A stretch of DNA of 46,012 nt from a virus. The stretch covers positions 1 through 46,012 of IMG/VR virus record IMGVR_UViG_3300030451_001127. One strand, written 5' to 3'. Positions within the stretch are counted from its first letter, which is position 1, and the number at the start of each line of letters is the position of its first letter. The position numbers were made by a program, and so were the translations under genes. The notes beneath the pieces were generated by a model, which saw nothing but the letters and a program-made list of their open reading frames with translations, made no database searches and was not told where the DNA came from. Of the stretch, positions 302 through 44,346 are shown piece after piece.

Positions 302-646
302 ATGCCTTATAAAATGAAGGGTACAGCAATGTACGACAAAATGAATGTTAATGGTAAGACAGTCATGAAGCTTAAAAAAGAATACGGTGGCGCTATGGAA
401 ATGGAGCACGGAGCGATGAAGAAGCACGGTCACTCTGCAATGGACGCTGCTAAACCAGATTACATTGACATCGATGGAGATGGAAATAAAAAAGAATCTA
501 TGAAGCAAGCTGCTGAAGACAAAAAGTCTGGCATGACTATGAAGCACGGAGCTGCAATGGAAATGGATAAGCCAATGACCGAAGACGTAGCTATGAAGAT
601 GAAAGCTGCGTATAAGAATTACAAGAAAGGTTACTACGGAGCATAA
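302..646 (+). CDS. Small Met/Lys-rich phage protein with a DxDGDG motif
   Basis: A 114-residue basic protein very rich in Met, Lys, His and Gly. It begins MPYKMKG, a start shared in pattern with other small proteins of this window (646, 42996, 44018). The middle carries two related Met/His segments (around residues 31-48 and 78-89) and, between them, DIDGDGNKKES (56-66). That stretch looks like a calcium-binding loop but does not keep the canonical 12-residue EF-hand spacing. Similar short proteins with this acidic motif are common in marine phage genomes (recalled). The stop overlaps the next start by one base (TAATG), so translation is probably coupled. Function unknown; a minor virion or DNA-associated protein is a guess. 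Confidence 0.75.
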   Translation: MPYKMKGTAMYDKMNVNGKTVMKLKKEYGGAMEMEHGAMKKHGHSAMDAAKPDYIDIDGDGNKKESMKQAAEDKKSGMTMKHGAAMEMDKPMTEDVAMKMKAAYKNYKKGYYGA

Positions 647-1014
647 TGCCATTTAAACTTAATAGGTATAAACCCCTGCCTGGTATAGCTACTGGTGGTA
701 AACTACGTAAAGGATTAAAGTTTAAGGTTAAACACAAGAACCTTGAGCCCGGTGTAATGGGTGAAGCTTATGAAAGTAAAGTTGTTGTAGATAAAAACAT
801 AAAGAAAGGTAGTGCTGAATACAAAAAAGTAATGAAGCATGAGGCTCAGCACGTAAAAGATATGCAAACTGGCCGCGCTGGATTTGGACCTGACTATGTA
901 AGATGGGAAGGTAAAACATTTCCTCGTAAAGACGGTAAAATAAAATACAACGGAAAGTGGTTAGAAGAAGGTCACAGATCTTTTCCTTGGGAACAATCAG
1001 CAAATAAAGCATGA
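646..1014 (+). CDS. Small basic protein with an HExxH zincin-like motif
   Basis: A 122-residue basic protein starting MPFKLNR. Residues 65-69 read HEAQH, preceded by a helix-like VMK and followed by VKDM, as in the active helix of zinc metallopeptidases, where the two His bind zinc and Glu activates water. The rest has short hydrophilic strands (RWEGKTFPR, GKWLEEGHRSFPW), a pattern recalled from a widespread small protein of marine phages. A third zinc ligand may be the His in EEGHRS, but this cannot be established here. It overlaps the holin start by four bases (ATGA). Peptidase activity is an inference; the protein is small for a complete zincin and could have lost catalysis. Possible jobs are processing of virion proteins or help in lysis. 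Confidence 0.7.
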   Translation: MPFKLNRYKPLPGIATGGKLRKGLKFKVKHKNLEPGVMGEAYESKVVVDKNIKKGSAEYKKVMKHEAQHVKDMQTGRAGFGPDYVRWEGKTFPRKDGKIKYNGKWLEEGHRSFPWEQSANKA

Positions 1015-9572: not shown

Positions 9573-11081
9573 ATGGCAATTTCAAATCCAGGTGGTAATT
9601 TAAATAGTGTAGCTGCACCAACTAAGCAGACACTAGAAACAAATTACCTAGATTTAGCGTCATCAGCTGGACAAGGCTGGGCGCAACAATACGTTCCAGA
9701 TCTAATGGAAGCAGAAGCTGAGGTGTTCGGTCCAAGAACAATCTCTGGTTTCCTTGCTCAAGTTGGAGCTGAAGAATCAATGACGGCTGACCAAGTTGTT
9801 TGGTCTGAACAAGGTCGTTTACACCTTTCATACAGAGGACATATCGCAAACGCTACTCAACAAACTGGTAACAGTAACGAAGAGGGTGGTACTTTCGAGA
9901 TCGACACAGATATCGATGGTAACCCTGTAGGTACTTCTGCAATTGATCACGGTGTTAGAGTTAACGATATGGTGCTTGTAGCTGATAACAGCGCAACAGC
10001 ACAAGGTATCGTTACTGCTGTATCAAACGATCAGATTAGTATCGCTCTTTACAATGCTGGTAACACTACTGCTACATTCGCAAACGCGGGTCTAGCTGCT
10101 GATACTGGTGATACAGCTACGCTATTAGTTTACGGTTCAGAGTTTAAGAAAGGAGATAACTACAACGGTAGTTCTTCTCGTCAAGCTAACGAGCCACAGT
10201 TTAAGTCGTTTAACAACAAGCCTATCATTCTTAAGGACTACTACGAAGTATCAGGATCTGATGCATCTCGTATTGGTTGGGTTGAAGTAGCTGCTGAAGA
10301 CGGACAGTCAGGATACCTATGGTACCTAAAAGCGCAGTCTGACACTCGTGCACGTTTCGTTGACTACCTTGAGATGGCTATGCTTGAGTCAGTTAAGACT
10401 GTAGCTGCTAACTCTAAAGTTGATGCGTTCTTAGGAACTGACGGTACTACTCTTACTGGTACTGAAGGTTTATTCGCAGCTATCGAAGATCGTGGTAACA
10501 TTACTACTGGTATCACTGGTGTTAACGCTGCTACTGACCTTGCGGAGTTTGACGCTATCTTAGCTGAGTTTGATAAGCAAGGTGCTATTGAAGAGAACAT
10601 GCTTTTCCTTAACCGTTCTACATCTCTAGCTATTGATGATATGCTTGCTTCAATGAACTCGTACGGTGCTGGTGGTACTTCATACGGAGTGTTTGATAAC
10701 GACGAAGACATGGCTCTAAACCTTGGCTTCTCAGGTTTCCGTCGCGGATCTTACGACTTCTACAAGTCTGACTTCCGTTACTTAAACGACAGAGCTACTC
10801 GTGGTGGTATTAATGATAGAGACACTGTAAACGCTATCCGCGGAGTTATTATTCCTGCTGGTACTTCTACTGTATACGATCAAACACTAGGTAGAAACCT
10901 TAGACGTCCGTTCTTACACGTTCGTTTCAGAGCTTCTGCAACTGATGATCGTCGTATGAAGACTTGGGTAACAGGTTCTGTTGGAGCTGCTACATCTGCT
11001 CTAGACGCAATGCAACTACACATGCTTTCTGAGCGTTGCTTAGTTGTACAAGGCGCAAACAACTTCATGTTGATGAAGTAA
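9573..11081 (+). CDS. Major capsid protein
   Basis: 502 residues, expected HK97 fold, forming the icosahedral shell. The order portal-scaffold-this gene and the size fit. The N-terminal part has TKQTLETNYLDLASSAGQGW and DLMEAEAEVFGPRTISGF, followed by VGAEESMTADQVVWSEQG; this resembles capsid proteins of marine phages (recalled). A beta-rich insertion (about 120-200, NDMVLVADNSATAQGIVTAV...) could be a surface domain. The C-terminal half has the helix-loop patterns of the A domain. It is flanked by an A-rich leader and a strong hairpin. Codon use differs from its neighbours: CGT dominates for arginine, and C-ending Phe and Asn codons are frequent, whereas neighbouring genes mostly use AGA, fitting very high expression. 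There is no visible delta-domain cleavage site. Confidence 0.85.
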   Translation: MAISNPGGNLNSVAAPTKQTLETNYLDLASSAGQGWAQQYVPDLMEAEAEVFGPRTISGFLAQVGAEESMTADQVVWSEQGRLHLSYRGHIANATQQTGNSNEEGGTFEIDTDIDGNPVGTSAIDHGVRVNDMVLVADNSATAQGIVTAVSNDQISIALYNAGNTTATFANAGLAADTGDTATLLVYGSEFKKGDNYNGSSSRQANEPQFKSFNNKPIILKDYYEVSGSDASRIGWVEVAAEDGQSGYLWYLKAQSDTRARFVDYLEMAMLESVKTVAANSKVDAFLGTDGTTLTGTEGLFAAIEDRGNITTGITGVNAATDLAEFDAILAEFDKQGAIEENMLFLNRSTSLAIDDMLASMNSYGAGGTSYGVFDNDEDMALNLGFSGFRRGSYDFYKSDFRYLNDRATRGGINDRDTVNAIRGVIIPAGTSTVYDQTLGRNLRRPFLHVRFRASATDDRRMKTWVTGSVGAATSALDAMQLHMLSERCLVVQGANNFMLMK

Positions 11082-27900: not shown

Positions 27901-30900
27901 GAGGTACTTGAAGAAGAGTTAATATACGTTGGTAATAACTTAGCAGATGGTTATTTACTAGGCGCTGATGTAAAGTGGGATCAGTTTGACGATATAGCAG
28001 TTACTTCATTGCTTACAAGTGGGCCAATGAACGGCCCAGCTAACGCTATTAACTTTATAAAAACCAACTATGTCACACGCGAAGCTAGGCAAAGTTATTT
28101 TGAAGGTAAAGCTGAGTTAGAAACGTTAAAAAAAGCGCTTACTAATGTAGACCCTAATGATACTCAAACTATAAACTTATACCACGAAAAGATCCGTGAT
28201 GTTGTTAGAACTAAGATAGCTTATGCAGACAACAACATGGAGGCTAGCGCTATAATAAATGGTACTAGAGGTTTAGAGCAATTAGTTAGAGCCGGATCTA
28301 TTGAAAGTAATATAAATAGAGAGGCTGGTATTAAACCAGAAGATAGCCCTCAAAAAAAGAAAGAGAAACTAGATTTATATAGAAAAAAATTAAGCTCTGA
28401 AAAACAACAAGAACTAGATACTAAGCTAAGCTTAATACAAGAGACGCGAGATAACATTACAGCCTCAACTGACGTGAAGTTTCAAAAAGAAGCTCTTGGT
28501 GAGAACGGGCTTATAAAAGAACATCTTGGCGACAGAGGCCTTCGTATTGCTGATAGATTAGCTAGAACTAACCCTGAGTTTAATTCTATGTCTAATAAAG
28601 ACAAGTTCATAGCGGTTCACGACGCGTCTAAAAAACAATTTCAACAGTCTGTTGTTAATGAAATGAAAAACGACAGTGATGTTAAAAAGTTTGTTGAAGA
28701 AAAAGTATATGGTAAAGGTGGTTTTGAAGGCTCTGGAAGAACTAATAGAAAAAGAAAATTAGAAAACTCTTATTACGAAGCCTTAGGCTCTATGCTTACT
28801 GCAAAAAGAACAAAGGCAAGAGTAACATACGACAGTCAGTATCTTAATGCTAAAGATATACTTAGTCAAAAAGAACTTAGTGAAGTTCAGATTATTGAAA
28901 AAGCAAATATAAAAGAAATACAACAATACCATATTGACAACTGGGAAGATATGGGTTATACTTCTATTGAGCAAGCAGAAAAAGAAGTAAGAGACTTTGT
29001 TGACAAAGACGGTAATCCCGTAGTAGATGACTTTGGTAGCATTACTATAGGTAAAAACGGTAAGCCTACATACTTAACTCTTAATGCTGAAAAAGTAAAA
29101 GAAAAATTAAGTCAAGGTAAGATTCTACAAGGAACAGTTTTTTCACACGAAATAAGTCACGTGATTACTGACATGGCTATGAATGAAGCTGAGATTGTAG
29201 AATTAGCTGAAAACCTACATGATTCAATGCAAAGAACGTCTCAACTTCGACGCATCAATGCACTAGCAATAGGCCAAATGACTAATCCTACTATCGTGGA
29301 AGATGCTAGATTAAAGGTTAAAGATCCGTCTAAACCGTACAACGCGGAGACTAATCCAATACTACCTATGAAACAGCAGACACCACTAGCTGCTGAAGAG
29401 TACGTTCATAGAGTACAAGACTTATTGCAAGACCCTGATAATGAAGTAGCGCTAGAACAAGCTAGAAAATCAGGTCAAGGTTTAGGTAACTTGTTTAGAA
29501 GCCTGTATGGAGGTGACTTTACTTTTAATGCAGCTGGATCTGGTTTAAACTATGTTGTAGGTTATATTGACGCCTTTAATAAGGGAGAAATATCTAGACA
29601 GGCTAAAAGAAAAATATCTAACAACATTAAATCTGACGAAGAATATTCAGAAGATATAAAGTCTGGTAAGAAAAGCTCTCAAGATGTATCAAGAGAAAAA
29701 GCAGAGGCTAGCAATAGAGTTCAAGAGTTATGGGAAAAAGGCGATGTAGCTAGCATTATTGACGAGTTTGACGGCATAAATACAGATGATGCAGCTATAG
29801 CTAAACGTAAAGGTCAAAACGTAGAAAGAAAAAAATCTTTACTAGAATCAATATTAAAGCCATACTCTAGAGTTGCAGGCTTTAATATGGAAGATGGTAA
29901 GATGGCGCTAATGACGCATCCTAGAGGGTTCTTAGGTCTTGTGCAAGAATACAATATAGAAAAAGGTGTACCACTTGCAGCGTGGTTAAACAAGTATTTA
30001 CCAGAAAGAGTTAAAGAAATAGTAGGAACTATAGGCGCAGACGGTCAGTTTACTGTAGATATAGACTCGCCAGCAGTTGTAGCTGTAGCTGATGACAATG
30101 ACGGCGTTTCACATGAGATGGAACGTAAGGGTAAAGGTGTAAAGCTTTGGACGAGGTTTGGAAGCAAAGGTAACAGCATACATAATAGTATAATGGCTGA
30201 TGTCATTAGCGGTGATATCAAGGTTGATGGTAAAAACTACAAAACATTAGGTGGCAAAAGATTCTACGAGGTTATGGATATGATGGGTATAAACCCTGTT
30301 AATAAAGCTGGTAAGCCTAAGACCGGTAACCTAGATCAGACTGATGTGTCAAACGCTCAGCGTTGGATACAGCAACATATTAGCGAGATACGTAACGCTA
30401 TAATACCTCAACACTCTACAACTAAGATGGTTAAGAACCCTAATACAGGGAAGCTCGAACCAAGACCAGATAAAGCTATAGGCATACCTCAAGTATTACT
30501 TAACTCAGAGCTATTTACTAAGCATACTAGAAAAGATAATCTCACTGGTTATTCTTTTAATGACGGCTTAACAGACGCTGAGATATTGTCTATGTTTGGT
30601 GTAACTAAAAGAGGCGAGCCGAATATTAAGCTTAAAGATGACAGAAACATTGGCCAAAGAATAAAAGCCTTAGTAAAGCTAACTGACATGGCTATGACTA
30701 ACCAAGGTGCTAGAGTAGCTATGGAAAACAGAGGTGATCACATCTCAGAAATACTACACTTAGCAGATGGTAGATCGTTAAACCTGTATTCTCAAGACGT
30801 TGATCCTACTGGTAAGGGTATTATTGACATGTTAGTTGGAGATACTATAGAAGGTTTCCAAGATGAGGCCAAGCTAGTTGCCGATATAGCTCTTGATGTT

Positions 30901-33900
30901 GGTTATAACACACCAAAGTTTCATCAAAGAGTTGCAGAAGAAGGTATATCAATATCTGTGCTCCAATATTTAGAGTCTATTAACTTTGAAAAATATTTTG
31001 CTAAAGGTGATCAAGGTTTAAAAGATCCTTTACGTAGTGCTATAGGTACTGGTAAATTCAAGCCTGGCGCAGAGGCTTTGCTTGGCAAGTTTTTTGAAAA
31101 TAAAATTGACGCTGATGACGTGACTGCTAACAAGCAGCTTGCAGCGGGCGCTAAAAGCTTAATTAAAAGTTTACCCGCGCCTTTAGTAAAAGCGTTAGGC
31201 TCACAATTCTTTGGCTTATTAGGTAGCAACAGAGGTTTAAATAAAAACAAAAACCAAGACGTATACGACGCTTACGAAGCTAAAACAAAAGGAGTAGTAG
31301 CTCAACCTGGAATAGTGCTGTTAAATGCTAATACAGGTTTAATGCTAAAAATACAAAGAATATTAGTAGATCCTAATTTAAACGCTAAGCAAAAAGAAGC
31401 TAGAGTTAAACAGCTTTACGGAAAAGATATTGATGCTGCTAATGAAAACAATGCTGTGGCTTTGAAGCAAGTGTTAGAAGCTATGTCTAAAACCACTGAT
31501 ACCAATGCTAGACTTGGTATTATGCGTATGTTTGAAATAGGTTCGAACAACACTCTTGGCATTAGAGGTTTAACAACTCTTGACGCTATACAGTACACAG
31601 ACGTTTCTCAGGCTAGATATATAGGCACGCATAAGAAGACAGGTAAAGTAGTTCATTTTGCTAGTAATCCTGATGCTAAGCAAAAAAATATTTATGATAT
31701 AGATCTTAATACTAAGCACCCTAATTATGCTGCGGCTGAGTCCTATGCAGACAGAAAATCTATAGCTGCTAGCCTTACTGAAAAAGGTAATCGTAAGAAA
31801 AACTATACAGACGAGAAAATACAAAAGCATAAGCAGAAAATACTAGAAGACGCTTTAAAGTTTAAAGGAGAGCACGTTACACCTAGCGCTAATACTCAAC
31901 GCCTCATGGTTGAAGCGCTGCTTCAAGCTTGGTACGACGGTGGTTTTGACATGGCTACAGCTAGTGAAGAGCTAACCGCAAACTTTGCTCAAACATTAGG
32001 CGCTAAAGTTTTTAGTGATCTTCAAGACGATGCTTTAGGTACTACTAGCACGGCGGATCAACTGCGTATGCTAGCTATACAAAATGACGTTAATATAGAC
32101 GAGTTTGTAGATACTAGAGAAGGTCAAGCTTTTTCTAGTTACGTTAGAAGCTTTATAACTAACAAAGAAACTTTAAGGCAGGTACAAGAAAATATATCTA
32201 AAGATAAATCTGCTAAGTTCCCTGAGTTAAAAGAAAGATTAAGCTCTATACTAGATGATAGCGTATCAGATATTGAGTTGCAAAAAACTGCAACAGATAT
32301 TCGTAAAGCAAACAACAAACGCTCTCAAGATACTTCTCCAAAAGGCATGACTGCTTGGGACTTTGATGATACTCTAGCTACTACAAAGTCTAATGTTATA
32401 TTTACTAAAGATGGTGAAACTAAAATAGTAAGCGCTGAAGATTTTGCTACACAAGGTGCTGACTTAGTAGCTGAAGGTTGGACACCAGATTTCTCTGAGT
32501 TTAACAAAGTAACTGGTGGTGAGCCAGGTCCTATGTTTGACAAAGCTATGGAGCGTGCTAGAAAATATGGTACAGAAGATACATATATACTTACAGCTAG
32601 AGCACCTGAAGCTGCGCCAGCTATTAAAGAGTTTTTAGATGCGCTAGGTTTAAACATACCACTTGAAAATATTACAGGTTTAGGCAACTCAACTGGTGAA
32701 GCAAAAGCTAGATGGTTATTAGATAAGCACGCTCAAGGATACAACGACATTGCATTTGCTGATGACGCTATGCAAAACGTTGAAGCTGTTAGAAAAGTCT
32801 TTGACGAAAATGATATAAAGGGTAAAGTTGAACAAGCTAAAAAGAAGTTTAGTCAAGACGTTGAAGCTACGTTTGTAGATCAAATGCTATCAGAAGGTCA
32901 ATCTGAAATTGACATGCAGTTCCAAGAGGTTCTTGAAGAAACAAAAGGTATAGACAGACGTAAAACTTTCTCCGCAGTTAAGGCTAGACAGCGTGGTAAA
33001 AACAAAGGTAAATTTAAGTTTTTCTTACCACCTTCGGCAGAAGACTTCAAGGGTCTTATGTACTCGTTTATGGGCAAAGGTGAGATAGGTGAAAAGCATC
33101 ACGCTTGGTTTAAAAAGAATTTATTTGATCCTTATTCAAAAGGTATGATGAGAATAAACTCTTTAAATCAAGAAATATCTAACAATATAAGATCACTTAA
33201 AAAATCTATACCTGGTATAAAAAATAAACTACGTGATAAAGTTGGTGACACAAACTTTACAAACGAGCAAGCTATAAGAGTTTTTAACTGGAATAGGAAC
33301 GGAGTTGAAGTACCTGGTTTGTCACGAGCTGATTTAAACACGCTTGTAAAAGCTGTTAACAACGATGCTGATTTAAAGATATTTGCTGACAACGCCTCAG
33401 ACATAGCTAATAAAATAGGTGTTGATCAAAACCCAGGCGTAGCTTGGTTAGCTGGATCTGTTTCTTCTGACATGAATGATATGTTACAGGACTCTAGAGC
33501 GGCGCTGCTGCAAGAGTTTAATAGTAATGCTGACGCTGTTTTTAGCGACAAGAACTTAAATAAAATTGAAGCTATATACGGTAGTAATTTTAGAGAAGCT
33601 CTTGAAGACGTCTTGTATCGTATGAAAACTGGTAGCACTAGGCCGCAAGGACAAAGTAGAATCATGAATAACTTCATGAACTGGATTAATGGTTCTATTG
33701 GTACGACTATGTTTTTTAACGCTAGATCTGCAATGTTGCAGATGGTATCTAACGTTAACTTTATAAACTGGCATGACAATAATCCACTTAAAGCGGCTAA
33801 AGCCTTTGCGAATCAAAAGCAATATTGGTCTGACGTTGCAATGATATTTAACTCGGATTATCTTAAACAACGTCGTGGTGGGTTAGGTACTGACTTAAAC

Positions 33901-35238
33901 GCAGCTGAGTTACTAAAAGACTTACAGCAAGGTGATAAGCCTATGAAGACTGCTATAGCACACTTGTTGCAATTAGGTTTTACACCTACTCAAATTGCTG
34001 ACAGCTTGGCTATCGCTACTGGTGGTGCTACTATGTACAGAAACAGGGTTAATTCCTATATAGAGCAAGGTATGAGTCAGCAAGAGGCTGAGTCGAAAGC
34101 TTTTGAAGATATGAAAGAGATATCTGAAGAAACTCAACAGTCTACTAGACCAGATAAAATATCTCAACAACAAGCTTCACCTCTTGGTAAGTTGATATTA
34201 GCTTTCCAAAACACACCTATGCAGTATAATAGAATTATTAAGCGAGCTGCTCAAGACTGGGTTAATGGTAGAGGCGATTGGAAACAGCACTTATCTAAGA
34301 TAGCTTACTATGGCGGTGTTCAAAGTATGATATTCTACGGGCTTCAAACAGCGTTGTGGTCTAGCTTATTTGGCGATGACGATGAAGAAGATCTAGAAGA
34401 AAAACAAGGTAGAGTGCTTAATGGCATGACAGACAGTTTACTACGTGGTGGTGGTATTGGTGGCGCGGTTCTAGCTACTGCAAAGAATACCATATTAGAG
34501 TTTATAGAGCAAGATGCTAAGAACGATGACGGTATATTCTACACAGATCCTAACCACGCATACACTATAATCGAAGCCCTTAACTTGTCACCGCCAATTG
34601 GTATTAAAGCTAGAAAGTTATACAGCGCTACGCAGACGTGGCAGTTTAATAGAGATGTAATTGATCATATGTCTAAAACAGATATTGATAATCCTATTTA
34701 TGACGCTACATTTTCGGCTACAGAAGCTTTAACTAATATACCGCTTAGTAGATTATATAACAAGTATCAAAATATATCTGAGGCTATGAACTCTGATAAT
34801 GAAACTTGGCAGCGTGTAGCTATGTTATTAGGTTGGAGCCGCTGGAGTTTTGGTATACAGAATACCGACGTTATGACAGCTAAGCAGGAGGTTAAAGAAA
34901 TTAAAGCTAAAGAAGCAGAGGAAAGAAGAGAGCAAAAGAAACAAGAGAAAGAAGCTGAAAGGCAAGCTGAAAACGAGGCTGTAATTCAAGGGCACATTGA
35001 AGAACAAAAGCAACAACGTGAAGACGGTATATCAGAAGATAAAATCACTTGTGCCGCTGTTAAACGCAATGGCGAAAGATGTGGTAAGACGGTTCTGCCT
35101 GGTCAAACATACTGTACTGTACACGAACAAGTTGAGCAACAAGACAATGAAGTTCAATGCTCACATATAAAATCAAATGGCGATCGCTGTAAAATGAAAA
35201 CAAAAAATAAATCAGGAAAATGTTACTACCACGATTAA
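24976..35238 (+). CDS. Giant multi-domain virion protein (3420 residues; polyvalent-type)
   Basis: About 380 kDa, one open frame of 10.2 kb, in the place of the largest internal virion protein. Visible parts: two tandem 28-residue repeats (11-38 and 43-70); two hydrophobic stretches near 816-860 and 912-932 that could enter membranes; a zincin-type HEISH motif (1391-1395); a HAD-phosphatase-like domain with WDFDDTL (Asp 2462, 2464, 2465), LTAR (2539-2542) and FADDAMQNVEAV (Asp 2596, 2597); a helical part with GTTMFFNARSAMLQMVSNVN (about 2907-2926), like the large-polyvalent-protein-associated domains found in phage and plasmid giants; another hydrophobic stretch near 3115-3135; a Lys/Glu coiled coil; and two C-terminal Cys/His units starting at Cys 3359. 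Inference: it is carried in the virion and injected, where its enzyme domains act early against host DNA, RNA or defences. No RNA-polymerase DxDxD signature or lysozyme motif was found. Its stop is overlapped by the next gene by 19 bases. Confidence 0.8.
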   Translation: MSLENLGTDVKQLLVDFTTTAKADNFDLNITLTKFPELQHVDKQLLVDFITTAQADNFDLNVTLPKFPEIVGQDVSNVGKRQDPTVYYGTPVVGLDKSESPTVSKEEDVSSDPIKKALDEEAKEKDAVKKQAEREVANMSPEKQEELFGANWYMMQEAFKVSTVADLIKSGEYKSELPPETTASIDDVPERGDEGELGLNYDSPVIDLTDFSTVINKSAADVRLAFDKSGDYPGLRIIETGGIGEAVRFILPDGTEIPIDLYPTKDTGRGVREWLYEGTQLGEAQAASRQRVLDEQMNKLKQVKEWYDKNDSREDIGLFRILGKRDDAFHFSFENTEYDDLDSINRELEVIGYEVKAPIPGRYLIYNKEGEVVYKGDGAQGVQNFFWENLTEGQISALKDSTTEATINATNVYRANRNELYDSVISQDPEELLNWGLNNIVGQKAWQGTVVKEGSISASSLIRNAAEKAGVSDATIDLLLGEEWMGNGARVGTKDGDEAVRFNLRTLLDDKDRYGRDKGTGLSIPLALKNKIPEDEFNILQNLFNADENGYTGIVTEDIIKEEAFRQADEKTATYMSTLSSLDDANGPQFIPLYDGNGNPVLDENGVQKKQEFRPEALSATIDELRRGSNYLDDIASQNDNYLNMTGSYKELFDAYGLKGTQIQAESKKELDEVLKQVAEAGLGYEVKDGIVTVSGLDEDKVNKYQRLVNDQIYKSREAALQWTEGYDALMGEYKTFASDALDLGVITDREYNFADNLRADFWGGFNDIGLNISSFFGSEQAMRMKESRQRGGEAREQLGSYDEMIDAGLGWRFAGRTIAQQGANVAVAIGTNIILPGAGSWLVPTMFGLSAGGEKRFQLEQQIDAGEFAQLELSSLENAYKNGLVGKAEYLERKSNLHETIALGDIDRGTLYAAVGTAAIIEGGISYAIGTNPNARSAIDALKGSVDDIASAITTTSGSRFLQMTGKTLKEIGGEVLEEELIYVGNNLADGYLLGADVKWDQFDDIAVTSLLTSGPMNGPANAINFIKTNYVTREARQSYFEGKAELETLKKALTNVDPNDTQTINLYHEKIRDVVRTKIAYADNNMEASAIINGTRGLEQLVRAGSIESNINREAGIKPEDSPQKKKEKLDLYRKKLSSEKQQELDTKLSLIQETRDNITASTDVKFQKEALGENGLIKEHLGDRGLRIADRLARTNPEFNSMSNKDKFIAVHDASKKQFQQSVVNEMKNDSDVKKFVEEKVYGKGGFEGSGRTNRKRKLENSYYEALGSMLTAKRTKARVTYDSQYLNAKDILSQKELSEVQIIEKANIKEIQQYHIDNWEDMGYTSIEQAEKEVRDFVDKDGNPVVDDFGSITIGKNGKPTYLTLNAEKVKEKLSQGKILQGTVFSHEISHVITDMAMNEAEIVELAENLHDSMQRTSQLRRINALAIGQMTNPTIVEDARLKVKDPSKPYNAETNPILPMKQQTPLAAEEYVHRVQDLLQDPDNEVALEQARKSGQGLGNLFRSLYGGDFTFNAAGSGLNYVVGYIDAFNKGEISRQAKRKISNNIKSDEEYSEDIKSGKKSSQDVSREKAEASNRVQELWEKGDVASIIDEFDGINTDDAAIAKRKGQNVERKKSLLESILKPYSRVAGFNMEDGKMALMTHPRGFLGLVQEYNIEKGVPLAAWLNKYLPERVKEIVGTIGADGQFTVDIDSPAVVAVADDNDGVSHEMERKGKGVKLWTRFGSKGNSIHNSIMADVISGDIKVDGKNYKTLGGKRFYEVMDMMGINPVNKAGKPKTGNLDQTDVSNAQRWIQQHISEIRNAIIPQHSTTKMVKNPNTGKLEPRPDKAIGIPQVLLNSELFTKHTRKDNLTGYSFNDGLTDAEILSMFGVTKRGEPNIKLKDDRNIGQRIKALVKLTDMAMTNQGARVAMENRGDHISEILHLADGRSLNLYSQDVDPTGKGIIDMLVGDTIEGFQDEAKLVADIALDVGYNTPKFHQRVAEEGISISVLQYLESINFEKYFAKGDQGLKDPLRSAIGTGKFKPGAEALLGKFFENKIDADDVTANKQLAAGAKSLIKSLPAPLVKALGSQFFGLLGSNRGLNKNKNQDVYDAYEAKTKGVVAQPGIVLLNANTGLMLKIQRILVDPNLNAKQKEARVKQLYGKDIDAANENNAVALKQVLEAMSKTTDTNARLGIMRMFEIGSNNTLGIRGLTTLDAIQYTDVSQARYIGTHKKTGKVVHFASNPDAKQKNIYDIDLNTKHPNYAAAESYADRKSIAASLTEKGNRKKNYTDEKIQKHKQKILEDALKFKGEHVTPSANTQRLMVEALLQAWYDGGFDMATASEELTANFAQTLGAKVFSDLQDDALGTTSTADQLRMLAIQNDVNIDEFVDTREGQAFSSYVRSFITNKETLRQVQENISKDKSAKFPELKERLSSILDDSVSDIELQKTATDIRKANNKRSQDTSPKGMTAWDFDDTLATTKSNVIFTKDGETKIVSAEDFATQGADLVAEGWTPDFSEFNKVTGGEPGPMFDKAMERARKYGTEDTYILTARAPEAAPAIKEFLDALGLNIPLENITGLGNSTGEAKARWLLDKHAQGYNDIAFADDAMQNVEAVRKVFDENDIKGKVEQAKKKFSQDVEATFVDQMLSEGQSEIDMQFQEVLEETKGIDRRKTFSAVKARQRGKNKGKFKFFLPPSAEDFKGLMYSFMGKGEIGEKHHAWFKKNLFDPYSKGMMRINSLNQEISNNIRSLKKSIPGIKNKLRDKVGDTNFTNEQAIRVFNWNRNGVEVPGLSRADLNTLVKAVNNDADLKIFADNASDIANKIGVDQNPGVAWLAGSVSSDMNDMLQDSRAALLQEFNSNADAVFSDKNLNKIEAIYGSNFREALEDVLYRMKTGSTRPQGQSRIMNNFMNWINGSIGTTMFFNARSAMLQMVSNVNFINWHDNNPLKAAKAFANQKQYWSDVAMIFNSDYLKQRRGGLGTDLNAAELLKDLQQGDKPMKTAIAHLLQLGFTPTQIADSLAIATGGATMYRNRVNSYIEQGMSQQEAESKAFEDMKEISEETQQSTRPDKISQQQASPLGKLILAFQNTPMQYNRIIKRAAQDWVNGRGDWKQHLSKIAYYGGVQSMIFYGLQTALWSSLFGDDDEEDLEEKQGRVLNGMTDSLLRGGGIGGAVLATAKNTILEFIEQDAKNDDGIFYTDPNHAYTIIEALNLSPPIGIKARKLYSATQTWQFNRDVIDHMSKTDIDNPIYDATFSATEALTNIPLSRLYNKYQNISEAMNSDNETWQRVAMLLGWSRWSFGIQNTDVMTAKQEVKEIKAKEAEERREQKKQEKEAERQAENEAVIQGHIEEQKQQREDGISEDKITCAAVKRNGERCGKTVLPGQTYCTVHEQVEQQDNEVQCSHIKSNGDRCKMKTKNKSGKCYYHD
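25006..25185 (+). repeat. Tandem N-terminal repeats in the giant protein
   Basis: Two copies of a 28-residue unit (KQLLVDFTTTAKADNFDLNI... and KQLLVDFITTAQADNFDLNV...), 25006-25089 and 25102-25185, joined by QHVD. They are nearly identical at protein level but differ at many third codon positions, so the duplication is old and kept by selection. A motif for packing into the virion or docking to a partner is a plausible guess. Confidence 0.85.
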
Positions 35239-37056: not shown

Positions 37057-39354
37057 ATGAAGAAGTTAGGATACATATTTGTAATACTGTTTTGGCTGCT
37101 AGCTAGTACAGTGTTAGGACAAGGCAGTTGGTTAGATATTACTGTACAAACAGATAACTACGGCGGTGAAACATCGTGGGAGATATTAAACGAGGACGAA
37201 GAGGTTGTCGCAGTTAACCCTCCATACCAGGACAATAGCTTATTAACTGTAACAAAGTTCTTGCCTGCCGGTGATTACCAGTTTGTAATGATGGATGCTT
37301 TTGGCGATGGTATATGCTGTGGCTTTGGTGAAGGTTTTTACAGGCTACACAACGCTTGCGGTTTAGATACAGCTAACTATGAGTTTTCTACAGCTGTCGA
37401 CACTATAGACTTTACACTTAACCCTTGTCTACCACTAGTGCCAGGTTGTACTAACGATTTAGCAAACAACTACAACCCATGGGCTACTGTCGAAGATGGT
37501 ACATGTAACGTAATCGAGTGTGACTCAGCTGAGACGTTAGTATCTATGGAGTTAACATTAGACACTTGGCCTAATGAAACTGGTTTTACTCTAGTTGATC
37601 TAGCTGTTGGTCAATTTTATGATCAAGTATTACCTGGTGAGTTTGATTTTGGTGATCAACTTGTTACGTACACATATGACTTTTGCGTATCACTAGGTTT
37701 TGAGTTAATACTAGTGGATACGTATGGTGACGGATTAAACGGATCTGCATCAGGTGGTGAAGACGGGTCTTGTATTATCACGGCTTGCGATAGTGTTATA
37801 TGGGAGTTAGACGATTTAGCATTTGCAGAGTTTGACGGCGGTACGATGTACTCTGGCGCTATATTTACTGAGCCATGTCCACCTGCTCCTGACGTGCCTG
37901 GCTGTATGGACGACGACTACGTAGATTATAATCCACTAGCTACAGTACAGGATACTTGTGAAACTCTACACGTTTGGGGTTGTACAAATCCTGAAGCGTT
38001 TAACTACGATAGCTTAGCTACTATATCAGATAACAATAGTCCTTGTGCTATTAACGTTACTATTGAAGACGACGGTGGTGATGGTTGGGGTAACTCAAAG
38101 CTAGGTATGATACAAGGTGATCAGCAATGGTTGTTTACTATGGGTCCTGGTTCATTTGAACAGTCATGGACTATTAACTTAGACTCTGACGCAGAGGTAA
38201 AGCTTTACTACTTTCAACAAGGTAACGCTCAACAGTCAGCACAAGAGCTAGCTTTCCAGACGTTACACAACTCTGTGTTGATTACTAACGAAGCTGGTGA
38301 TACACTATTGTCTGAAGGTACAAACCCTTTCTTTAACAACGGACAAGGAGCGTTACAGCCGTTTGACGAACCTAACTGGACTACATATAGCTTTATACCT
38401 TACTGTGGTGATAGCTGTGAACCATTTAGCTATGGCTGTACAGATGCTATGGCGCAAAACTACAACGCTGAAGTAAACACAGAAGACGGTAGTTGCTACT
38501 ACCAAGCTGGTTGTACTCAAGCAGGTTATTTAGAATATTATACACAAGGCTATGAAGCTGATTACGACAACGGAGACTGTCAGACGTTAGCAGTATTCGG
38601 TTGCATGGACGAAGAAGCATTTAACTATAACCCAGAAGCAAACGTTGATAACGAGGGTTGTATACCTGTAGTGTTAGGCTGCACGAACCCACTTGCTTTT
38701 AATTACAACTCGGCCGCTAATACTGACGATGATAGCTGTATACCTTTCGTCTACGGTTGCACGGACGCAACTATGTTTAACTATGATCCGGAAGCTAACG
38801 CTGAAGATGGTAGCTGTATTCCTTACATTTATGGCTGTACTGACAGTAGCGCCTTTAATTATGATCCAGCTGCTAATACTGATAATGGCTCGTGCGAAGA
38901 AGTGGTGGTCGACTGTATGGACCCGCTAGCGTACAACTATAATGAACTTGCAAACGAACCTGCAGACAACTGTTTATATGACGCTGGTTGTATCGGTGGA
39001 CCTGGTGAACCATACTGGTTAAATGACTTGTGCTATGCATGGGTGATTGAAGCAGATCCATATTGCTGTAGTGAAGAGTGGGATAACACTTGTCAAGCAA
39101 CATATGACTACTGTAGTGTAACAGGTATAGAATCCGTGCTAGCTGGTGATGACTTAGTTGTCTACCCAAACCCGGTGGGCAATGTGTTAAACATAAATCA
39201 AAACGTTGACGTAGACGTGATCGATTCCAACGGACGTATCATAGTATCTAAAACAAATACGAACGCGATAGACGCGTCCCTATGGCCTCCAGGAATGTAT
39301 ATGGTACGTATTATTTGGAACGGTCGCGTCGTAGTCAATAAAGTTATTAAATGA
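37057..39354 (+). CDS. Secreted Cys-rich repeat protein with T9SS sorting domain
   Basis: 765 residues. The start MKKLGYIFVILFWLLASTVL is a Sec signal peptide. The mature protein has beta-sandwich-like regions (about 21-125, 150-270 and 325-450) and about ten copies of a unit patterned GCxD/N-xx-AxNYNPxAN-xxD-xSC, most regular near residues 545-635. A Cys-dense segment near 650-690 (YCCSEEWDNTCQ) follows, and the last ~70 residues (from VVYPNP, 701) have the form of the T9SS type A C-terminal sorting domain (YPNPxxxxL ... GMYMVRI ... KVIK). Known role of the domain: passage through the T9SS of Bacteroidetes and attachment to the cell surface. A phage-encoded T9SS substrate is unusual. Possible purposes: a surface adhesin that masks receptors, or particle binding. 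It is also possible that it was captured from a host gene. Confidence 0.85.
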   Translation: MKKLGYIFVILFWLLASTVLGQGSWLDITVQTDNYGGETSWEILNEDEEVVAVNPPYQDNSLLTVTKFLPAGDYQFVMMDAFGDGICCGFGEGFYRLHNACGLDTANYEFSTAVDTIDFTLNPCLPLVPGCTNDLANNYNPWATVEDGTCNVIECDSAETLVSMELTLDTWPNETGFTLVDLAVGQFYDQVLPGEFDFGDQLVTYTYDFCVSLGFELILVDTYGDGLNGSASGGEDGSCIITACDSVIWELDDLAFAEFDGGTMYSGAIFTEPCPPAPDVPGCMDDDYVDYNPLATVQDTCETLHVWGCTNPEAFNYDSLATISDNNSPCAINVTIEDDGGDGWGNSKLGMIQGDQQWLFTMGPGSFEQSWTINLDSDAEVKLYYFQQGNAQQSAQELAFQTLHNSVLITNEAGDTLLSEGTNPFFNNGQGALQPFDEPNWTTYSFIPYCGDSCEPFSYGCTDAMAQNYNAEVNTEDGSCYYQAGCTQAGYLEYYTQGYEADYDNGDCQTLAVFGCMDEEAFNYNPEANVDNEGCIPVVLGCTNPLAFNYNSAANTDDDSCIPFVYGCTDATMFNYDPEANAEDGSCIPYIYGCTDSSAFNYDPAANTDNGSCEEVVVDCMDPLAYNYNELANEPADNCLYDAGCIGGPGEPYWLNDLCYAWVIEADPYCCSEEWDNTCQATYDYCSVTGIESVLAGDDLVVYPNPVGNVLNINQNVDVDVIDSNGRIIVSKTNTNAIDASLWPPGMYMVRIIWNGRVVVNKVIK
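37444..38979 (+). repeat. GCTDxxAxNYNPxANxxDGSC protein repeats
   Basis: About ten units of roughly 24-30 residues, two Cys per typical unit, scattered first and then tandem between 38590 and 38970. Conserved core: Cys-Thr-Asp/Asn, then Asn-Tyr-Asn/Asp-Pro, then Asp-Gly-Ser-Cys. Acidic and Asn-rich spacing suggests calcium-binding, disulfide-closed loops as in bacterial surface proteins of Flavobacteria. Most T9SS-exported proteins in that group carry such units (recalled). Confidence 0.8.
39133..39354 (+). other. T9SS type A C-terminal sorting domain
   Basis: Last ~73 residues of the secreted protein. Markers in order: LVVYPNPVGNVLNI, the central strand VIDSNGRIIVSK (the usual xxGxxV pattern), ASLWPPGMYMVRI (the usual LxxGxYxxxI pattern), and the closing VVVNKVIK with a terminal Lys. 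All core elements are present. Confidence 0.85.
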
Positions 39355-41311: not shown

Positions 41312-41619
41312 TGGAAAGAGGTTTATTTAACATAACAAGCGCCACGACTACTACCTTAGTAGACATAAGAACTAAACAAAGTAAAAACATAAGCTTACGC
41401 ATGACTAACACGCACGCTAGCACTGCTGTTACTGTTGATTTGTTTTTAGAAGATGAATCATTAAACAAAGTTTATATATTAAAAACAGATATACCAGGCC
41501 AAACAAGCTTACTGTTAAACGAAGATTTGTCATTTAATAACAGCACACTAGCTTTAAAACTAACAACATCAGCTGGAGGTTTAAGTACATCTACTCCTTT
41601 ATCTGTAATTATAAAGTAA
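41311..41619 (+). CDS. Small beta-sandwich-like structural protein
   Basis: 102 residues: an all-beta pattern (TTTTLVDIRTKQSKNISLRM, AVTVDLFLEDES, KVYILKTDIPGQTSLLLNED). No signal peptide. The start overlaps the preceding stop by one base and the end overlaps the endolysin start. Probably part of the fibre or tail tip; small proteins of this shape, with HASTAVTVDLF, are common in marine phage fibre regions (recalled). Confidence 0.6.
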   Translation: MERGLFNITSATTTTLVDIRTKQSKNISLRMTNTHASTAVTVDLFLEDESLNKVYILKTDIPGQTSLLLNEDLSFNNSTLALKLTTSAGGLSTSTPLSVIIK

Positions 41620-42080
41620 TGGACAATATAAGTAAACACATAAGCTACAAAGAAGCAACGCGTAGTAATACAGCTTTACGTAGAGGTATTAATAATATAC
41701 CTGATGTAGAAGAGCTTGAAAACATGAAGCTAATAGCTGAGAAAGTTTTTGAACCACTACGCAAGCACGTTGGTGGACCTATTAAAATAAATAGTTTTTA
41801 CAGGTCACCTGAGCTAAACGTAGCTATTGGTGGTAGTAAGAACTCTCAACATTGCAAAGGTCAAGCAATAGATTTAGACGATACGTACGGACACAGAACA
41901 AACGCGTCTATGTTTCAATGGATGCGTTATCACTTAGACTATGATCAAATTATATGGGAGTTTGGTGACGATAAAAACCCAGCGTGGATACACGTTAGCT
42001 ACGTGTCTGAAGACGAAAACAGACACCGTTGCTTAAAAGCATATAAAGAAAATGGTAAAACAAAATACAAAGTAATATAA
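41619..42080 (+). CDS. Peptidoglycan peptidase of the M15 family (endolysin)
   Basis: 153 residues. The pattern NSFYRSPELNVAIGG (66-80 region), NSQHCKGQAIDLD and WIHVSY is the M15 (VanY/D-Ala-D-Ala carboxypeptidase-like, subfamily 3) signature: His 78 and Asp 85 with a final His 125 bind zinc. It cuts peptide cross-links of peptidoglycan; phage relatives act as endolysins. No signal peptide, so release needs the holin at 1011. Its location in the fibre operon rather than next to the holin is unusual but known in marine phages. Single-domain size matches the minimal family. Confidence 0.85.
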   Translation: MDNISKHISYKEATRSNTALRRGINNIPDVEELENMKLIAEKVFEPLRKHVGGPIKINSFYRSPELNVAIGGSKNSQHCKGQAIDLDDTYGHRTNASMFQWMRYHLDYDQIIWEFGDDKNPAWIHVSYVSEDENRHRCLKAYKENGKTKYKVI

Positions 42081-42086
42081 GAAATT

Positions 42087-42584
42087 ATGGCAGACTTATC
42101 TGTAACAATTACTGAAAGCGTAACGCTGAACAGTAAAGCAAGGGGAAATACAATATCAAAAACATTTGCTGGTATCAATAATACTATTGAAAAATTAGTC
42201 ACATGTCTCGCAAATAACGATACTACAATACTCAAGTGTGGGCCTACTGGTCATACGTCAGACGCGGAGGTTCACGTAGATGATATTAGATATATCCGAG
42301 TAACAAACTTAGCGACTGACGCGGCTCACGTAGTAAACCTATCTTTACAAATTGACGATACTGAGCATGCTTCTGACGCTGCAACAGCTGAAGACACGGC
42401 TAACTTTTTATTAGGAGCTGGTGAAAGTTTTATATTAGGAACAGTTTTAAATGGTCTTAACGTAGAAGAAGGTGATACAACTCCTGTGGATGCTGGAGCT
42501 AATCTTAATAATCTTGAGTCTATAATTATTAACGAAGCTGCAGGTAACAACGTGCAGATCGAAATGTTTGTGGCTACTGTATAA
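42087..42584 (+). CDS. Hypothetical structural protein
   Basis: 165 residues, acidic, rich in Thr, Ala, Asn and Asp, starting MADLSVTITESVTLNSK. Strands such as IRYIRVTNLATDAAHVVNLS and ESFILGTVLNGLNVEEG suggest a beta-rich domain; IIINEAAGNNVQIEMFVATV closes it. No signal peptide. Together with the previous genes it may belong to the fibre or decoration group. Its end overlaps the start of the basic protein gene. Not recognised. Confidence 0.6.
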   Translation: MADLSVTITESVTLNSKARGNTISKTFAGINNTIEKLVTCLANNDTTILKCGPTGHTSDAEVHVDDIRYIRVTNLATDAAHVVNLSLQIDDTEHASDAATAEDTANFLLGAGESFILGTVLNGLNVEEGDTTPVDAGANLNNLESIIINEAAGNNVQIEMFVATV

Positions 42585-42991
42585 TGGCTTATACTCAAAA
42601 AAATAATCCTTTTCCAGTTACATCGTGCGGCAGGCGTAGAAACTTTCAGACTACTGGTAATCCTATCAAGATGGTTGAAGACTCTCCGCTTGATAAACGT
42701 AAGCGCAAGCGTAAGCCTGACGTACGTAGAACTATAGGTCCAGGCAAGAACTTCAATAAAGCAAAGTCAACAGGTACTGGTGGCGCTGCTGGTGGAGGTA
42801 TGACTGAAAAAGGCGTAAGAGAATACAGGCGTAAAAATCCTGGTAGTAAATTAAAGACAGCTGTAACTACACCACCTTCAAGATTAAAGAAAGGTAGTAA
42901 AGCAGCTAAACGTAGAAAATCGTTCTGTGCTAGATCAAAAGGCTGGAAAAGCAAAAGAGGCCTTGCAGCTAGACGCAGATGGAATTGTTAA
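42584..42991 (+). CDS. Small highly basic protein (DUF6321-like)
   Basis: 135 residues with an extreme Lys/Arg content and a high positive charge. After a short start with NPFPVTSCGRRRNFQTT come KRKRKPDVRRTIGPGKNF and TGGAAGGGMTEKGVREYRRK, then PSRLKKGSKAAKRRKSFCAR and a terminal RRRWNC. It resembles short basic proteins (annotated DUF6321) that occur in cyanophages and other marine phages (recalled). The similarity to histone-like tails suggests DNA binding or neutralisation of packaged DNA. Two Cys near the end may bind metal or form a disulfide. Confidence 0.7.
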   Translation: MAYTQKNNPFPVTSCGRRRNFQTTGNPIKMVEDSPLDKRKRKRKPDVRRTIGPGKNFNKAKSTGTGGAAGGGMTEKGVREYRRKNPGSKLKTAVTTPPSRLKKGSKAAKRRKSFCARSKGWKSKRGLAARRRWNC

Positions 42992-42995
42992 CATC

Positions 42996-43286
42996 ATGGC
43001 TTTTAAAATGAAATACAAAGATCTCAATGAGGTCGTAGAACAATTAAGAGGTGCGGTCAAAGCTCACGGTAAACAGGCTGACACTATTGAAAAACATATT
43101 AAAGATATGGATGGTGGTAGCGCAAAAAAGCAACTATCTCCTATGAAGGGTAAGATTAGTGGCCCTTGTAAAACAGCTGCTAAACGCAAGTTTAAAGTAT
43201 GGCCTAGCGCTTATGCTTCAGGTTGGGGCGTGCGTTGCACTAAAGCAGGTGGACCTAGTAAAATGGGTAAAAGCAAAAAGAAATAA
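42996..43286 (+). CDS. Small basic protein with MAFKMK start
   Basis: 96 residues from the ATG at 42996; the in-frame start at 42927 lies inside the previous gene and is rejected because the conserved MAFKMK start is preferred. A helix (KDLNEVVEQLRGAVKAHGKQ) is followed by SPMKGKISGPCKTAAKRKF and the motif WPSAYASGWGVRCTKAGG, which recurs in marine-phage small proteins (recalled). Two conserved Cys. Strongly basic, ending KMGKSKKK. Function unknown; a DNA-binding or packaged protein is a reasonable guess. Its end overlaps the next start by one base. Confidence 0.7.
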   Translation: MAFKMKYKDLNEVVEQLRGAVKAHGKQADTIEKHIKDMDGGSAKKQLSPMKGKISGPCKTAAKRKFKVWPSAYASGWGVRCTKAGGPSKMGKSKKK

Positions 43287-43570
43287 TGGCTATATACAGA
43301 TCATCTCCGGTTAACAAGAAAAGCAAAAAGATGGGTGACTTTAAACACTCAGACGCCCCTGATGCTAAAGGTAAGTTTAATAGTCTTTCGCCATCTGGTT
43401 TAGCGTCTTGGCTTATTAAAACTAGAAAAGGTAATCTGTCTAAAATTATTAGTAGTCTTAATCAACAGTATGTTTTCAATAGAAAAAAGCGACCTTCATA
43501 CGCTAAGAAAATGAAAACAACTATGAATATAGTTCGCAAGCGTTTAGGTAAAAAGAAAGATGGCAAGTAA
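43286..43570 (+). CDS. Small basic hypothetical protein
   Basis: 94 residues, strongly basic, MAIYRSSPVNKKSKKMGDF at the start. There is a central helix (SPSGLASWLIKTRKGNLSK) and a helical tail with SYAKKMKTTMNIVRKRLGKK. Very low acidity and no hydrophobic core of note. It overlaps the next gene by 11 bases. It may fold only with DNA or RNA. No family recognised. Confidence 0.65.
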   Translation: MAIYRSSPVNKKSKKMGDFKHSDAPDAKGKFNSLSPSGLASWLIKTRKGNLSKIISSLNQQYVFNRKKRPSYAKKMKTTMNIVRKRLGKKKDGK

Positions 43571-44018
43571 AGCTTATAGAGGCGTATTGAAAGCTAGAAT
43601 ATCAAAGCTATACGGCGGAGATGTTACAGTTGAAAAAGCTCGTAAGCTTAAAAATCGTAAAGACGCTACGCCAAGAGATAAACAATTAGCAAACTGGTTT
43701 ATAAACATGCAGACTAATAGATCTTCATTTAAGAAAAAGAAAGCGGATCCTAAAGAGGGTACGGGCAAGAAGCCTAAAGGCAGCGGCAGAAGACTATACA
43801 CAGACGAAAATCCTAAAGACACAGTGCCAATTAAGTTTGCTACAGTATCTGATGCTAGAAAAACTATAGCTAAAGTAAAACGTATTAACAAACCTTACGC
43901 TAGAAAAATACAGATACTAACTGTACTAGAGCAACGCGCTAGAGTTATGGGTAAAATGGAGCAAGCTCGCTTAGCTAAAGCTGCTAAAAAAGAATTAAAA
44001 AGAAAACACAATAAGTAA
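43560..44018 (+). CDS. Basic hypothetical protein
   Basis: 152 residues, basic throughout with four sections: a helical N-terminus (AYRGVLKARISKLYGGD), KARKLKNRKDATPRDKQLAN, a flexible Lys/Gly/Pro linker (DPKEGTGKKPKGSGRRLY), and a C-terminal helix-rich part (MGKMEQARLAKAAKKELKRK). A DNA- or RNA-binding role is plausible but unproven. It starts inside the end of the previous gene and overlaps the next start by one base. Confidence 0.65.
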   Translation: MASKAYRGVLKARISKLYGGDVTVEKARKLKNRKDATPRDKQLANWFINMQTNRSSFKKKKADPKEGTGKKPKGSGRRLYTDENPKDTVPIKFATVSDARKTIAKVKRINKPYARKIQILTVLEQRARVMGKMEQARLAKAAKKELKRKHNK

Positions 44019-44302
44019 TGGCGTTTAAAATGAAATCACCCTTAGCTAAAAAGTCTAAGGTAAAAGGTGGAGGCACGAAAAAAGTTTGTTTACCTGCTGC
44101 TAAAGTTAGAAGCATGAGCAAATCAGAGCGCGATAAAGTAGTGCGCGCTAAACGATCTGCAGCTAAAGGTGGTAAGTACAAACGCTCTAGTAAAAGCAAC
44201 GTCAAAGGCGCTCGTAAAAAAGGAGCTACATTACGTGATTGGTTTGAAAAAGAAAACTGGGTACAAGTTGGTAACCCAAGTAAAAAATGCGGAGAGAAAT
44301 AA
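44018..44302 (+). CDS. Small basic protein with MAFKMK start and conserved tail
   Basis: 94 residues, Lys/Arg/Ser-rich. It starts MAFKMKSPLAKKSKVKGGG, then KKVCLPAAKVRSMSKSERDK, KRSSKSNVKGARKKGATL and a C-terminal RDWFEKENWVQVGNPSKKCG. Small proteins with this LRDWF/W tail are known in viruses of marine hosts and giant viruses (recalled). Two Cys may form a zinc site or disulfide. Last gene of the rightward block, before the convergent terminator. Confidence 0.7.
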   Translation: MAFKMKSPLAKKSKVKGGGTKKVCLPAAKVRSMSKSERDKVVRAKRSAAKGGKYKRSSKSNVKGARKKGATLRDWFEKENWVQVGNPSKKCGEK

Positions 44303-44303
44303 A

Positions 44304-44327
44304 AAAAGGGGACTTACGTCCCCTTTT
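44304..44327. terminator. Convergent (bidirectional) terminator
   Basis: The arms AAAAGGGGAC (44304-44313) and GTCCCCTTTT (44318-44327) pair perfectly around a TTAC loop. The T run follows the stem on the plus strand and the A run gives a T run on the minus strand, so it can end both the late operon and the leftward RNR operon that converge here. Confidence 0.9.
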
Positions 44328-44346
44328 CTGTATCCGGTAGTTTAGA

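Follow-up and report, generated by a model that had tools for sequence, protein, structure and literature searches.

Five small basic proteins at the end of a phage late operon: candidate head-internal virion proteins, some with exchangeable N-terminal tags

What does a phage do with a row of small proteins that are exceptionally rich in lysine and arginine? The question is raised by IMG/VR virus record IMGVR_UViG_3300030451_001127, whose 46,012 bases (the window) were analyzed in full. Five consecutive open reading frames (ORFs), here P1 to P5, close its late operon at 42584-44302 on the + strand and encode proteins of 94-152 residues. An initial annotation had called these proteins histone-like and offered four roles: condensing packaged DNA, coating DNA after ejection, binding RNA, or neutralizing host nucleases. 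Our results lean slightly toward P1-P5 being virion proteins that lie inside the head in association with the DNA, some of them addressed there by exchangeable N-terminal tags.

The five most basic genes of the window form one run

The combined lysine and arginine fraction (K+R) of P1-P5 is 0.25-0.32 (25-32%), compared with a window median of 0.121, and the five are exactly the most basic among the 35 genes of the window; when gene order was shuffled, an equally basic run of five arose in 10 of 100,000 trials. Their net charges are +34, +17, +22, +32, and +24, respectively, which sum to +129. In all 35 comparisons of P1-P5 with seven related loci, the nonsynonymous substitution rate was below the synonymous rate (dN < dS), and P1-P5 look like real genes under purifying selection. 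These data bear out the number, size, and charge given in the initial annotation.

Other parts of that annotation hold only for some of the genes. With P2 taken to begin at the ATG at 42996, the described overlaps are present between P2 and P3 (1 nucleotide), P3 and P4 (11 nucleotides), and P4 and P5 (1 nucleotide), whereas P1 and P2 do not overlap. The GTG listed as the P2 start, at 42927, would give a 65-nucleotide overlap with P1; the ATG, 4 nucleotides past P1, is most likely the true start because several homologs have the same MAFKM N-terminus (in our Pfam and PHROGs searches P2 was entered from 42999 onward and so lacked the initial Met). The cysteine counts of P1-P5 are 3, 2, 0, 0, and 2, which limits the claim of paired cysteines to P2, P5, and part of P1. 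"Histone-like" fits only the charge, as no histone, HU, or protamine family matched P1-P5 in Pfam or PHROGs at E-values up to 1. A search of solved structures yielded no convincing relative of the P5 profile (best E-value 0.023) or of P1, and P3 has a weak match to phrog_600 (E = 0.00078). The structure model of P4 (predicted local distance difference test score, pLDDT, 78) had no Protein Data Bank fold match at an E-value of 0.001; its five viral matches at that limit are unnamed or uncharacterized proteins of phages and uncultured viruses, one of them from cyanophage P-TIM68. The P5 model (pLDDT 61) was unusable.

Viral contigs contain 456 relatives of P5, of which the best 80 were retrieved; the peptide MAFKMKSP was used for part of this search, a choice that favors tagged forms of P5. 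Among 50,697 isolate phage records, P2, P3, and P5 had no match at the thresholds applied (E = 1e-5 for P5). Many of the 80 loci are truncated; homologs of P2 are present in 70, of P3 in 47, and of P1 and P4 in 46 each. All five families lie within 5 kilobases (kb) in 20 of the 55 loci that have at least 3.5 kb upstream of P5, 13 of them in the gene order of the window and 7 in other orders. In addition, 19 ORFs match two of the five families simultaneously, and in some loci P4 matches two adjacent ORFs. Genes in these loci were called by a simple longest-ORF rule, by which starts can be missed or misplaced, and single-linkage clustering merges most of the basic families into one cluster of 330. 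Based on the varied order, the two-family ORFs, and the division of P4 over neighboring ORFs, P1-P5 are, at the level of sequence, a mosaic cassette of small basic modules that are shuffled, fused, and split, rather than one protein family.

High charge alone would also suit proteins that remain unpackaged and bind the nucleoid or the ribosomes of the infected cell. We consider such a role in host takeover very improbable, given that the run stands at the end of the late operon and that its relatives are annotated as virion proteins (see below). Nothing pointing to a ribosome or RNA role turned up, no test having been aimed at one.

Short N-terminal sequences on otherwise unrelated proteins

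Two short sequences recur at the N-termini of these proteins. Tag A begins P2 and P5 and, in variant or tag-like form, two further basic genes of the window, X1 and X2 (Table 1); MAFKM, MAFKL, or near variants also start dozens of unrelated small proteins. Tag B (MxYxQxNPF) is found on P1 and among homologs of P3 and P5; 43 proteins of the examined loci carry it. The core of P5 homologs, 70-96% identical in 30 aligned sequences (alignment A1), may be preceded by MAFKM, MYTQ-SPF, MAYNQ-NPF, or MPFKQ-NPF, and P3 homologs have similar alternatives. As judged from these alignments, the tags are exchanged between proteins.

In the P5 loci a tag is present on 64 of 1338 distinct proteins, compared with 2 of 6023 internal Met positions, and 55 of the 64 reach a K+R of 0.2 and so count as basic. 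When proteins were clustered after removal of their first 12 residues, AFKM headed 10 unrelated clusters and the next most frequent 4-mer headed 3. The tag regular expressions (regexes) were drawn from the P5 loci, and two fresh sets were analyzed. A scan of viral contigs with an 18-base pattern for MAFKMK (80 loci examined of at least 120 stretches) gave 91 matches, 80 of which are gene starts, in 41 clusters. Holin homologs are present in 30 of these tag-pattern loci and terminase homologs in 46. The terminase is 70-88% identical to that of the window in 43 loci with a tagged gene and 23-26% identical in the other 3; therefore, tagged loci with a terminase in reach belong to the lineage of the window. 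The second fresh set consisted of 80 loci fetched with the large terminase subunit (TerL), of which 79 (without L093; locus numbers carry the prefix L) were used with a broad tag regex and 73 (without L093 and six with a match at, or cut by, the contig end) with a narrow one. Here the broad tag is N-terminal in 35 of 894 proteins, compared with 2 of 5733 internal Met positions.

The common N-terminus could instead be a translation-start or recombination sequence that is kept at the DNA level. The tags stand exactly at gene starts with A-rich sequence upstream, Phe at position 3 is encoded by TTT in 60 of 62 cases against a background of 85%, and shuffled modules could recombine at such joints. 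However, the Ala codon varies (GCA 28, GCT 19, GCG 12, GCC 1), and none of the 23 Leu codons that replace Met at the fifth position (CTA 12, TTA 9, CTT 2; uncorrected for relatedness) differs from ATG by a single base. Selection thus seems to act on the peptide and not on the DNA. We therefore hold a DNA-level signal to be rather unlikely.

Several further features of tagged proteins were recorded. The motif [SN]P[FLM] was tried as a general second half of tag A and rejected; it occurs in 21 of 66 tagged proteins, more often than in untagged basic ones (51 of 374) or all untagged ones (64 of 1272), yet it is not general. The WPSAYAS motif of the P2 module occurs in four proteins of the tag-pattern loci, none of them caught by the tag-A regex used there. 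The members of the X2 family in TerL-linked loci are small, begin with MPFKL, MAFKLG, or MGFKLG, and carry HExxH where the sequence was shown; X2 has no Pfam match at an E-value of 0.1, and its family may comprise packaged peptidases or enzymes of head maturation. X1 is absent from the window's tag matches in the scan of the TerL loci, where the gene caller did not return it. The stretch DIDGDGN of X1 is EF-hand-like, and L088 has a similar one in a tagged protein (at 4371). In phage elemoF, QMP85242 (L208, 16876-17895), annotated "Structural protein" and encoded between the portal and capsid genes, starts MFKMK.

Relatives in other phages and the evidence from virions

P1 is a member of Pfam family DUF6321 (PF19846; E = 4e-11, 43.8 bits, cut-off 28.5), and a variant of this family is present in 542 of the 50,697 phage records, 483 of them named as Synechococcus phage, cyanophage, or Prochlorococcus phage and 36 as Pelagibacter phage; nearly all of the 60 such records listed are named hypothetical protein. 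P4 is 75% identical to gp40 of Pelagibacter phage HTVC033P over 49% of its length (the C-terminal part). In that phage gp36-gp42 form a series of seven small basic ORFs, close to a lysis gene and including gp40 and a DUF6321 member (gp36), as in the window, although its proteins are shorter, have no MAFKM tag, and serve a phage of another host.

Hidden Markov models (HMMs) of the window families were also compared with nine module proteins of T4-like cyanophages. The P1 model matches eight (E = 1.2e-9 or better), the P2 model six (4.5e-16 to 1.3e-18), and the P4 model three (2.1e-17 to 1.1e-48), whereas the best E-value among 360 shuffled sequences was 0.075 for these models. In the S-SM2 and Bellamy proteins the P1, P2, and P4 modules are all fused in one. 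Proteins of this T4-GC 119 type (SSM1_115, SSM2_109, QFG06285; phrog_727) resemble the cassette in having P1, P2, some P4 modules, and weak, permuted P5 parts; they differ from it in being one long fused protein without tags, mostly beside packaging or head genes. In SSM2_109 of S-SM2 (L211, 3938-6064) the P5-like parts are swapped, LRDWF..WVQV standing before SMSKSER, which suggests that this protein holds a permuted P5-like module.

A link to giant viruses through DUF5872 (PF19197) was considered and rejected. P2 scores 16.1 bits, under the cut-off of 27.5; DUF5872 was found in none of P5 and its 29 aligned relatives; and two cyanophage proteins with a P2 module, SSM1_115 and QFG06285, do not match it at E-values up to 0.1. 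The available part of PMC12085832 lists DUF5872 in the gene table of an algal virus. A literature search gave no function for either family (no paper on DUF6321, one on DUF5872); the protein families of the cassette as such are already in the libraries, with no function assigned.

Two other phage groups provide evidence from virions. QFG06285 of cyanophage S-SCSM1, which has P1- and P2-type modules, is annotated "virion protein"; excerpts of PMC9602691 report 45 proteins detected by mass spectrometry (MS) in cesium chloride-purified S-SCSM1 virions, and the label presumably rests on that experiment. SSM1_115 is T4-GC 119 of S-SM1, whose virion proteome comprises 41 proteins according to the accessible part of PMC3037559. 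Its orthologs carry the GenBank note "similar to Synechococcus phage S-SM1 protein". In the stretches read of related records this note marks gp4, gp5, gp13, gp14, gp15, gp18, gp48, gp53, and T4-GC 15, 190, and 119, and otherwise other fiber, structural, or unknown genes. The marked genes include ones named in the same part of PMC3037559 as detected in the S-SM1 virion, whereas gp16, gp17, gp32, gp59, gp61, and nrdA, and likewise gp7, gp8, gp9, and gp26, are unmarked. In the second group, gp080 of Cellulophaga phage phi40:1 (phrog_6437) is, like P1-P5, small and basic (K+R 0.32, or 0.34 in its 91-residue form), and it is annotated as structural from "experimental MS/MS proteomics analysis" (tandem MS). 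It has no tag, and the search gave no homolog in the window itself, but homologs are present in eight P5 loci, where they directly abut P1 (L005, L006, L068, L075) or P5 (L042, L046, L048), the exception being L073. Phage phi38:1, whose major capsid protein and TerL are of the window's type (35% and 37%), carries a gene identical to that of gp080. The available excerpts of a paper on protein methylation in Cellulophaga phages (PMC13288928) do not mention gp80 or gp080. Through homologous modules in one group and homologous neighbors in the other, these annotations lend indirect support to a virion location of P1-P5. Of the four roles first proposed, condensing packaged DNA is thus the best supported, with DNA binding itself being a presumption from charge.

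Because the run sits one gene past an M15 endolysin, its products might instead be lysis accessories. Disruptins are cationic phage proteins that disrupt the outer membrane in lysis, and P1-P5 could act in this way alongside the endolysin. The basic run of HTVC033P likewise lies beside an amidase, the DUF6321 gene of HTVC028P comes a few genes after an M15 peptidase, and gp080 of phi40:1 is three genes from an amidase. We nevertheless judge this explanation improbable: homologs carry virion annotations that are backed by MS, the module protein is encoded between the terminase genes in S-SM2, S-SM1, S-N03, and Bellamy (elsewhere in P-SSM4), the P4-type protein of P-TIM68 is encoded one small gene past the major head protein gene, and 94-152 residues seems long for membrane-active peptides.

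The closest known arrangement is that of the T-even internal proteins, which have a common N-terminal packaging signal and are otherwise unrelated, accessory, and variable; in T4 about 1000 internal-protein molecules lie among the packaged DNA, their lysines touching phosphates, and Ip1-3 block restriction enzymes once injected (available parts of PMC3012670 and PMC12373910). T4 IPI-IPIII are small and basic (isoelectric point (pI) 8.9-9.5) and share only a short N-terminal sequence, as do the tagged proteins here, in which a common start is found on unrelated clusters. The T4-type targeting sequence itself is not present in the window tags: the T4 proteins begin MKTY or MKTF (MKTYQEF, MKTFKEF) instead of MAFKM or MxYxQxNPF, and their K+R is 0.14-0.19 instead of 0.25-0.32. 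Furthermore, the T4 proteins are cleaved, packaged, and injected, whereas those of the window are known from their genes alone. As a separate observation, T4-like N-termini (MKTF, MKTY, MKSF, and the like) occur beside or on the module protein in six of the nine cyanophage loci (L211-L219) and are absent in P-SSM2, P-SSM4, and S-SM1 (where one unrelated gene matched); the regex matched 0 of 96 genes in two other P-SSM4 stretches and exactly the three ip genes among 65 in a T4 stretch. The regex had been loosened after cyanophage examples were seen, so the six of nine are not independent and the result is a lead only. The tag-pattern loci yielded no instance of the motif C-x-NPKG, which is seen in cyanophage proteins.

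The T4 precedent also supplies the main rival, that each basic protein, like Ip1-3, blocks a host nuclease or another defense after injection, its charge aiding packing only. The T-even internal proteins that inhibit restriction enzymes have only the packaging signal in common (same parts of PMC3012670 and PMC12373910), and the tagged proteins here are largely unrelated, their modules gained, lost, and shuffled. On the other hand, the cores of P1-P5 are conserved across phages (that of P5 at the identities given above) and not fast diversifying; no PADLOC anti-phage defense model matched P1-P5 at E-values up to 0.1; and the P1 and P4 modules also occur in Pelagibacter and cyanobacterial phages, which would be odd for narrow inhibitors. 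From this evidence, we regard counter-defense cargo as unlikely, though less so than the other alternatives.

If P1-P5 are head-internal virion proteins, they would be made late and packed into the head together with the DNA, where their lysines would help to neutralize and order it; by computation, about 71 copies of each would offset 10% of the charge of 46-kb DNA. They would probably exit the head with the DNA upon infection. The tags of P2 and P5 (MAFKM), of P1 (MxYxQxNPF), and of X2 would most likely address proteins to the assembling head, by analogy with the T4 capsid-targeting sequence.

Several findings weigh against this reading. The tag is not universal: the broad regex found it in 27 of 79 TerL loci, and the narrow one found a tag-A gene in 14 of the 39 with at least 3 kb upstream. 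In this less biased set the narrow regex tagged 18 proteins, of which only 4 are basic (K+R of 0.2 or more), and visual inspection assigns about 26 of the 35 broad matches to the X2 family. Close to the terminase, therefore, the tag sits chiefly on X2, and basic proteins that bear it are seen mainly in the P5 cluster. In the window, P3 and P4 are untagged. So are the stretches read of MW202828 (TerL 64-67%; both genome halves), Panino, phi38:1, and phi18:3; among the stretches of the four isolates other than MW202828, only elemoF has a protein with a tag-like start (MFKMK). A few of the 41 tagged clusters, such as the amidase-like pair of L115 and L155, may be due to chance. The fused cyanophage proteins are untagged and have a lower K+R (0.15-0.27); P5 matches in them are weak (best independent E-value 0.0015), and the P3 HMM matched none of the nine. 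The proximity of the endolysin is also compatible with lysis. No proteome was found for this phage or any tag-bearing phage, and a search of open-license papers found no link of these families, or of the tag, to virions.

Genome context, host, and implications

Table 1. Positions of P1-P5, X1, X2, and other features of the window
Feature	Positions	Strand	Description
X1	302..646	+	114 residues; tag-like N-terminus MPYKMKG, Met/Lys-rich, EF-hand-like stretch; seventh most basic gene
X2	646..1014	+	122 residues; tag-type N-terminus MPFKL, HExxH motif; sixth most basic gene
Holin	1011-1439		
Terminase	3757-5976		Late region
Portal	5979-8351		Late region
Capsid-type virion protein	9573-11081		Late region
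M15 endolysin	41619-42080		One gene between it and the P1-P5 run
P1	42584..42991	+	135 residues; tag B N-terminus (MAYTQKNNPF), C-terminal DUF6321 module (PF19846)
P2	42996..43286	+	96 residues; tag A N-terminus (MAFKMK), C-terminal WPSAYAS/Cys-pair module
P3	43286..43570	+	94 residues; lysine-rich module; homologs bear tag A or tag B N-termini (alignment A3)
P4	43560..44018	+	152 residues; predicted helical, two parts; C-terminal part common to pelagiphages and cyanophages
P5	44018..44302	+	94 residues; tag A N-terminus (MAFKMK), very conserved core with Cys pair
Terminator-like hairpin	44302-44329	reported as -	12 pairs; between P5 and the ribonucleotide reductase gene
Ribonucleotide reductase		-	Opposing gene beyond P5

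The late region of the window is podophage-like and of Bacteroidota type (Table 1). On the + strand the hairpin after P5 is visible as GGGGAC/GTCCCC followed by TTTT; a promoter and terminator scan of the window as a whole gave 4 sites compared with 4.6 in shuffles, no excess. The late region also encodes a 765-residue protein (37057-39354; 37 Cys, K+R 1.6%, pI 4.1) at the charge extreme opposite to P1-P5, and two giant ORFs at 24976-35238 (3420 residues) and 13718-21931 (2737 residues), the first of which has a homolog in 38 of the 80 P5 loci.

A marine member of the Bacteroidota is the most likely host, because the isolates closest to the window in terminase and capsid protein are MW202828 (63.7% TerL), Maribacter phage Panino, the Flavobacterium elemo phages, and Cellulophaga phages. 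Among the P5 relatives, one is in a contig of a Saprospiraceae metagenome-assembled genome and another in a contig binned as Aliivibrio.

Tentatively, and somewhat short of an even chance, a large uncultured lineage of marine Bacteroidota phages may load dozens of unrelated small proteins, both basic modules and HExxH peptidase-like proteins, into the head by means of the tags M-A-F-K-M/L and M-x-Y-x-Q-x-N-P-F. If true, the capsid-targeting code of T4 would have a second, independent counterpart, whose mosaic cargo is partly common to cyanophages and pelagiphages. The internal proteins of T-even phages have been listed by their N-terminal signal (available part of PMC12373910); reading the tag would similarly list the candidate head cargo of a phage and, if the tag works as a head-loading signal, help to identify the injected proteins of Bacteroidota phages. 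Chlorella viruses have basic virion proteins on their DNA, and the accessible part of PMC3281028 sees no evidence for a large contribution of such proteins in phages, a view to which confirmation in the present phage would be relevant. Unexplained small basic ORFs like these are widespread, and the link to virions and to a removable tag gives many such genes a testable function.

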